Positions 14,779 to 15,162 of a stretch of DNA of 64,000 nucleotides are shown one piece after another. The DNA lies in NCBI GenBank assembly GCA_038400315.1, contig CP151667.1, positions 6,583,174-6,647,173 of the forward strand. Direction: 5' to 3'. The notes beneath the pieces were generated by a model. The model was not told the origin of the DNA, searched no databases, and saw nothing but the letters and a program-made list of their open reading frames with translations. A program made the translations under genes and the position numbers. This DNA comes from Isosphaeraceae bacterium EP7. GTDB lineage: Bacteria; Planctomycetota; Planctomycetia; Isosphaerales; Isosphaeraceae. The first letter of the stretch is position 1, and every line of letters starts with the position of its first letter.

Positions 14779-15162
14779 TGCGGCCCGCAGGATTCGAACC
14801 TGCAACCAAGGGATTCGAGGCATCCCCGCGTTTCCGCGGGGCTCGGACTATCTCACCCTCACCGCGCGCCGCGCCGTTTCTGGTCGCGTCGCGGGGAGGC
14901 CGGGCGCTCGTCGGCGGGGAGTATCGTTCGGGCCTCACCCCGCTAGTCTCTGAACCTTCCTGGCCACCTTTCGCCCGGGCCAGGCTTGGCTGCGGATTGC
15001 CATGCCGCCGGCTGTCTCCGCGCGTCTCCGGAAAGATCCGGGGGCACGCGGGCCGCTCGGTTTAGGTTCCCCGCAATTCACCCGGATCGCGTACGGGGGT
15101 TCCCCCCCGCCGCCACCACTTTGTTTGATGAGTCCCCTGCTCTGCCGTTGAGCTAGGGCCGC
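14779..15162 (-). tRNA. tRNA-Ile(CAU) interrupted by a group I intron
   Basis: The 5' exon is 15162-15128 and the 3' exon 14815-14779, giving a 72-nt mature tRNA without encoded CCA. Acceptor GCGGCCC (15162-15156) pairs fully with GGGCCGC (14786-14780) and the discriminator is A. The D arm is GCTC/GAGC with a 7-nt loop. The anticodon stem is GGGGA/TCCCT and the loop CTCATAA gives anticodon CAU. The T arm is GCAGG-TTCGAAT-CCTGC. The core GACTCATAAT with CTTGGT after it is typical of the minor isoleucine tRNA whose C34 is changed to lysidine by TilS, rather than initiator or elongator Met, but elongator Met is the alternative. A scan that does not allow a long intron would miss it. Confidence 0.93.
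14816..15127 (-). ncRNA. Group I self-splicing intron (IC3-like) in tRNA-Ile(CAU)
   Basis: The 312-nt intron lies right after the anticodon, between U36 and A37. The 5' exon ends in CAU and the intron ends in G, as group I splicing needs. An internal guide GUGG (from 15119) can pair with exon UCAU, with the splice-site U facing G. Conserved core elements are in order on the minus strand: AATTGCGGGGAACCTAAA (15078-15061), GCAGCCAAGCC (14993-14983), GTTCAGAGACTAGC (14955-14942) and AGATAGTCC (14853-14845). GACTA and TAGTC form P7. P9 is CCCCGCG-GAAA-CGCGGGG (14841-14824). These match the tRNA introns of Azoarcus and cyanobacteria from memory. It contains no homing endonuclease gene. Confidence 0.92.

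Follow-up and report, generated by a model that had tools for sequence, protein, structure and literature searches.

The minus strand of the window (the whole stretch of 64,000 nucleotides that was analysed) carries, from position 15162 to 14779, a split tRNA-Ile(CAU) gene of 384 nt in total, and its transcript is best read, with a probability that we put at about 0.93, as the genome's sole tRNA-Ile2(CAU) precursor, from which a 312-nt group I ribozyme lying between U36 and A37 would remove itself. tRNA-Ile2(CAU) is the lysidine-modified tRNA that reads AUA, and it is a substrate of TilS. The gene consists of the following parts:

15128 to 15162, minus strand: 5' exon of tRNA-Ile(CAU), 35 nt, its last base the anticodon U36; near-identical in 40 family members
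14816 to 15127, minus strand: group I intron, 312 nt, recognized by an RF00028 match and by covariation over 40 sequences
14779 to 14815, minus strand: 3' exon of tRNA-Ile(CAU), 37 nt; CCA is not encoded

The first-pass annotation had described a 72-nt tRNA with anticodon CAU, split after the anticodon by a 312-nt intron; its coordinates proved exact, and ARAGORN folds the 72 nt of joined exons into a tRNA with anticodon CAU. The program labels this product Met, as it does not separate Ile2 among CAU tRNAs. ARAGORN and the Rfam tRNA model both report tRNA-Arg as the only tRNA in the window, so the split gene is invisible to the two of them, as had been predicted of tRNA finders. Inside the intron, RF00028 gives 31.1 bits (E 3.4e-6), plus a further P9 piece, and with a cutoff of E 0.001 the model matches nowhere else in the 7.2-Mb genome; the group I match that had been anticipated was obtained by E-value, but its score lies under the gathering score of 50, same-site homologues reaching up to 76 bits. 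Sub-threshold Rfam matches at the locus to AAC_AAD_leader, tRNA-Sec and P17 overlap helices of the tRNA or intron and were judged to be chance, and scans for promoters and terminators found nothing. Folded as a single sequence, the intron is mildly better than its shuffles (z -1.99), a weak value that is expected of a GC-rich pseudoknotted RNA, for which the z-score is uninformative.

Comparative analysis provided the secondary structure. Forty Isosphaeraceae sequences were aligned, and the group I helices were positioned manually, guided by the Rfam alignment and our own, before their pairs were counted. Pairing was found in 99.4% of 3240 helix cells, falling to only 47-49% when the partner strand was slid by one base, a comparison that favours the proposed structure because it was derived from the same 40 sequences. 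Compensatory change was seen at 20 pairs against a shuffled mean of 6.9, with 0 of 500 shuffles as high, where it must be borne in mind that shared ancestry can by itself raise such a count above that of shuffles. Even so, compensatory change in P2, P3, P6a, P9.0, P9 and the tRNA stems supports the predicted fold, the elements of which are listed from the 5' end of the intron:

15114 to 15116, minus strand: internal guide sequence GUG, pairing with exon CAU (P1) in 40/40 sequences
15089 to 15113, minus strand: P2 hairpin with GNRA loop L2 (15103-15100, here GGAA); compensatory change at 7/9 pairs
15080 to 15085, minus strand: P3 5' strand, from RF00028; one compensatory pair
15070 to 15075, minus strand: P4 5' strand (3' strand 14996-14991), from RF00028 and pair counts
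15000 to 15066, minus strand: P5, with a receptor-like CCUAAA/CAUGG and a variable extension, from the alignment
14954 to 14990, minus strand: P6/P6a hairpin; compensatory change at 4/6 pairs of P6a
14944 to 14950, minus strand: P7 5' strand with the guanosine-binding G-C pair and a bulged A, invariant in 40/40
14914 to 14943, minus strand: P7.1 hairpin between P7 and P3', with a conserved loop and a 6-bp stem in the family
14900 to 14905, minus strand: P3 3' strand, from RF00028 and pair counts
14857 to 14899, minus strand: P8 hairpin, its four basal pairs invariant
14845 to 14850, minus strand: P7 3' strand, invariant
14824 to 14841, minus strand: P9 hairpin with loop L9 GAAA (14834-14831), GAAA in 40/40; compensatory changes
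14816 to 14819, minus strand: P9.0 3' strand and terminal omega-G (14816), omega-G in 40/40

RF00028 and the pair counts over the 40 sequences thus recover the P3-P4-P6-P7-P8 core with the P3/P7 pseudoknot that is required of a group I intron. The conserved core segments and the GAAA-capped P9 hairpin, both singled out in the earlier reading, pair across the family, and the final U of the 5' exon and final G of the intron to which it had pointed correspond to a splice-site U.G pair and an omega-G that are each present in 40/40 sequences. Both intron boundaries are likewise kept throughout the alignment. L2 is GNRA in all 40, as GUAA, GCGA, GCAA, GGAA, GUGA or GAGA, and the outer pair of P9.0 is A-U in 30 sequences and G-C in 10, both sides switching in step.

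In the scheme that follows, the catalytic steps and their cofactors, the tertiary contacts and the function of P7.1 are inferred. The intron GUG would pair with CAU of the 5' exon to form P1, setting the U.G pair at the splice site, and exogenous guanosine, bound in P7, would attack after U36. Omega-G would next occupy the same site in P7, and the exons would be joined. The fold would be held in place by the GNRA loops L2 and L9, as it is in the Azoarcus intron, with P7.1 added, and after splicing CCA would be appended and TilS would convert C34 to lysidine. It is unlikely that the intron splices in the cell only with the aid of a host protein, such as a synthetase- or helicase-like factor: misfolding is conceivable in its long, GC-rich periphery, and protein dependence is documented for some group I introns (PMC3984707), but the conservation of the core, of both GNRA loops and of the P9.0 pairs suits an RNA whose own contacts direct its folding.

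That the split gene is the only Ile2 gene of the genome was concluded from several searches. A second intact tRNA-Ile(CAU), the finding named beforehand as telling against the proposal, was looked for in the genome and none was found: all of the genome's tRNA-model matches, re-read with ARAGORN, included no intact Ile2 and no Ile(UAU), and a DNA search of the genome with the split gene returned only itself. By reading of their sequences, the other CAU tRNAs are one elongator Met and three initiator copies. The gene was assigned as tRNA-Ile2(CAU) on its CAU anticodon, the presence of tilS in the genome, the lack of another Ile2, and a tRNA body formed by the joined exons that, by comparison with known Ile2 tRNAs, we take to be of Ile2 type. 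Elsewhere in the same genome, a cluster of low-scoring tRNA genes (L065, G000:C1:5595600-5597500) comprises Cys, Tyr, Ser, Ser and a gene with an AAU anticodon, and a separate AAU-anticodon tRNA-like gene occurs at L078; these are possibly of mobile-element origin or decaying.

The locus might instead be a pseudogene holding a dead relic of an intron, with AUA read by another tRNA. Such a reading could draw on the low RF00028 score of the window copy, the great rarity of AUA (0.78% of the Ile codons in the long ORFs of the window) and the two odd AAU-anticodon tRNA-like genes. It is nonetheless highly improbable: conservation across the family covers the exons and all catalytic positions while the peripheries diverge, the searches of the genome turned up neither a further Ile2 gene nor an Ile(UAU) gene, and tilS, whose substrate is tRNA-Ile2, has been kept.

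The split tRNA-Ile(CAU) gene was found in 41 of 45 Isosphaeraceae genomes, whole in 40 and spread over two contigs in one, while in the remaining four it was either not found or represented by a piece at the edge of a contig; an intronless tRNA-Ile(CAU) was seen in none of the 45. RF00028 matches occur in 43 of these genomes, 41 of them in the Ile gene alignments and two solely in a tRNA-Lys gene. The same arrangement thus recurs in independent genomes of more than 20 genera, named isolates included, which leaves an assembly error or contamination in an otherwise intact gene, for which nothing was found in favour, exceedingly improbable. Genomes of other planctomycete families have a tRNA-Ile(CAU) that is uninterrupted across the same exon junction, an exception being one genome of family f4 (G056) with an intron that also occupies the 36/37 site and is devoid of P7.1. 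On a tree of the Ile introns, many deep branches of which are unresolved, genus labels change 20 times, near the minimum of 19 (shuffled mean 32.3), indicating that the intron follows its hosts. Its length ranges across the family from 252 to 416 nt, which leaves no room for the usual endonuclease gene and bears out the earlier remark that such a gene is absent. By these sequence comparisons, the Ile intron is nearly universal in Isosphaeraceae and inherited vertically without an endonuclease.

A second split tRNA gene was recognized in the same genome. An intact tRNA-Lys(UUU) is missing; what scored as a weak tRNA match at G000:C1:5616999 turned out to be the 3' portion of an interrupted gene:

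G000:C1:5616658-5617062 (L151:459-863), outside the window: tRNA-Lys(UUU), sole copy, with a 34-nt exon, a 332-nt group I intron and a 39-nt exon

The Lys intron gives no Rfam group I match even at E 1, and ARAGORN also misses the gene; homologues of the intron in G022, G032 and G038 score 54-57 bits with RF00028. It occurs in 36 of the 45 Isosphaeraceae genomes and ends in G in each of the 33 copies examined, and on its tree genus labels change 15 times (minimum 15, shuffled 25.3), so that this intron too tracks the host genera. In four genomes of genus g18 the same exons form a continuous tRNA-Lys(UUU), and this establishes 34/35 as the junction. With introns allowed, ARAGORN also read the Lys introns as Asn, Phe, Leu or Arg genes; these readings were discarded because their introns would not end in the base that the omega-G rule demands and because intronless tRNA-Lys(UUU) genes share the Lys exons; a pattern match at L104, considered as a tRNA-Lys(UUU), has no cloverleaf. 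AAA accounts for 8.5% of Lys codons. Isolated 3' fragments of the Lys gene (G042:C14:112777-112821, G003:C272:18984-19033, G028:C1:6131161-6131205 and G040:C2:348656-348699) lie 6 to 74 kb from the split gene, an arrangement that integrated elements with duplicated attachment sites would give. In G015, a second copy of the tRNA-Lys intron (G015:C218:978-1356) is near-identical to that of G016, a member of another genus, which suggests assembly contamination or recent transfer.

Group I matches were found in 84 of 398 genomes of the class. The flanks identified host sites in Ile(CAU) at 36/37, and at 33/34 in other families, in Lys(UUU) and Leu(UAA) at 34/35, in Asn at 35/36, in initiator Met at 33/34, and in 23S rRNA, the sites in less-sampled intron types being a reading by the U and omega-G rules. 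In other families, tRNA-Ile(CAU) (L131, L133-L136, L143, L147, L148) and initiator tRNA-Met (L124, L127, L137, L141, L145) are interrupted between U33 and C34. Those in or at 23S rRNA genes come from several planctomycete families (L111, L112, L116, L118, L119, L126, L142), with L126 and L142 seeming to contain more sequence than the ribozyme alone, and one further intron (L115) appears, from its flank, to lie in 16S rRNA.

P7.1, a 6-bp hairpin with a conserved loop, follows P7 and precedes the P3 3' strand in the Ile intron of every family member, and is lacking in introns of the Azoarcus type. Features of subgroup IC3 are present, namely GNRA loops on P2 and P9 and no P5abc, P5 having a variable arm only; the IC3 introns of Azoarcus and Synechococcus have no extension between P7 and P3, whereas P7.1 is conserved here, and despite its IC3-type tetraloops the intron was not filed under IC3. 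An extension at this place is absent from published IC3 ribozymes, including that of Synechococcus, and is found in td, an IA2 intron (PMC4498298). In the Ile introns of genus g6 (L091, L092, L093), a second hairpin follows P7.1 at the place of the group IA P7.2. A conserved 19-mer was scanned as an exact match over about 85,000 genomes; its matches outside Isosphaeraceae were introns at site 33/34 of tRNA-Leu(UAA) in three MAGs labelled Proteobacteria, Myxococcales and Deltaproteobacteria (L188, L198, L206, L215), which share the 6-bp P7.1 hairpin and its loop, and viral contigs returned no match. Introns of tRNA-Asn from another planctomycete family (L114, L117) have a P7.1 of 5 bp, in which two changes are compensatory. 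A tree of 26 tRNA introns, built on 196 columns only, groups the Isosphaeraceae Ile set with the Leu and Asn sets (99/98) and puts the G056 intron next to that group (99/99).

A rather doubtful proposal, offered tentatively, is that introns with P7.1 form a lineage that has spread across phyla and to different tRNA genes and anticodon-loop sites (36/37 in Ile, 33/34 in Leu, 35/36 in Asn), with no endonuclease and conceivably through reverse splicing. Isosphaeraceae would have retained it because splicing that depends on GTP and magnesium, in two tRNAs that are present as single copies and read codons ending in A, would adjust decoding to cellular conditions.

With an intron in the sole Ile2 gene nearly family-wide, an RNA enzyme appears to be needed to complete the tRNA set, and usually for Lys as well; provided that splicing occurs as proposed, Isosphaeraceae seem to depend on a ribozyme for decoding AUA, and most members on a second for AAA. 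Annotation tools report both tRNAs as missing. The family shows clearly that introns lacking an endonuclease can be maintained by descent, extends the bacterial host genes to tRNA-Lys(UUU), and provides a naturally occurring IC3-like ribozyme bearing P7.1, for which intron-free relatives can serve as controls, making the persistence of such introns testable. The kind of intron is already known; the P7.1 variant and its distribution are new, and splicing is presumed. In the open-access literature, no published description of planctomycete tRNA introns was found, nor any of tRNA-Lys(UUU) as a bacterial group I host gene.

Among known systems, the Azoarcus intron, about 205 nt long against 312 nt here, likewise has its splice position directly after the anticodon. 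It is an IC3 intron of the same tRNA, tRNA-Ile(CAU), with a 3-nt guide that likewise pairs to CAU (PMC6274277), and it too carries GNRA loops on P2 and P9, for which its receptors lie in P8 and P5 (PMC2813881). Unlike it, the window intron has P7.1 between P7 and P3, differs from the Azoarcus CCUAAG/UAUGG in the P5 motif facing L9, and has been retained vertically through a whole family. Group IA td of phage T4 resembles it, by description and not by sequence, in having a P7.1/P7.2 extension between P7 and P3 (PMC4498298), but interrupts a phage protein gene, whereas the present host is a bacterial tRNA and the intron has a 3-nt guide and a GAAA L9. In the survey with tRNAscan-SE 2.0, fMet or Ile2 was hidden by group I introns in 36 genomes, with Acidovorax, Burkholderia and cyanobacteria named (PMC8450103); the tRNA-Ile2 introns of the first two conceal the same host tRNA from gene finders in another phylum. 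Group I tRNA introns have been surveyed in cyanobacteria and in alpha- and betaproteobacteria (PMC4033280). The cyanobacterial introns of tRNA-Leu(UAA) and tRNA-fMet are also group I introns of the anticodon loop, in other tRNAs and at other positions, and that of tRNA-Leu is old and has been kept vertically (PMC4033280).
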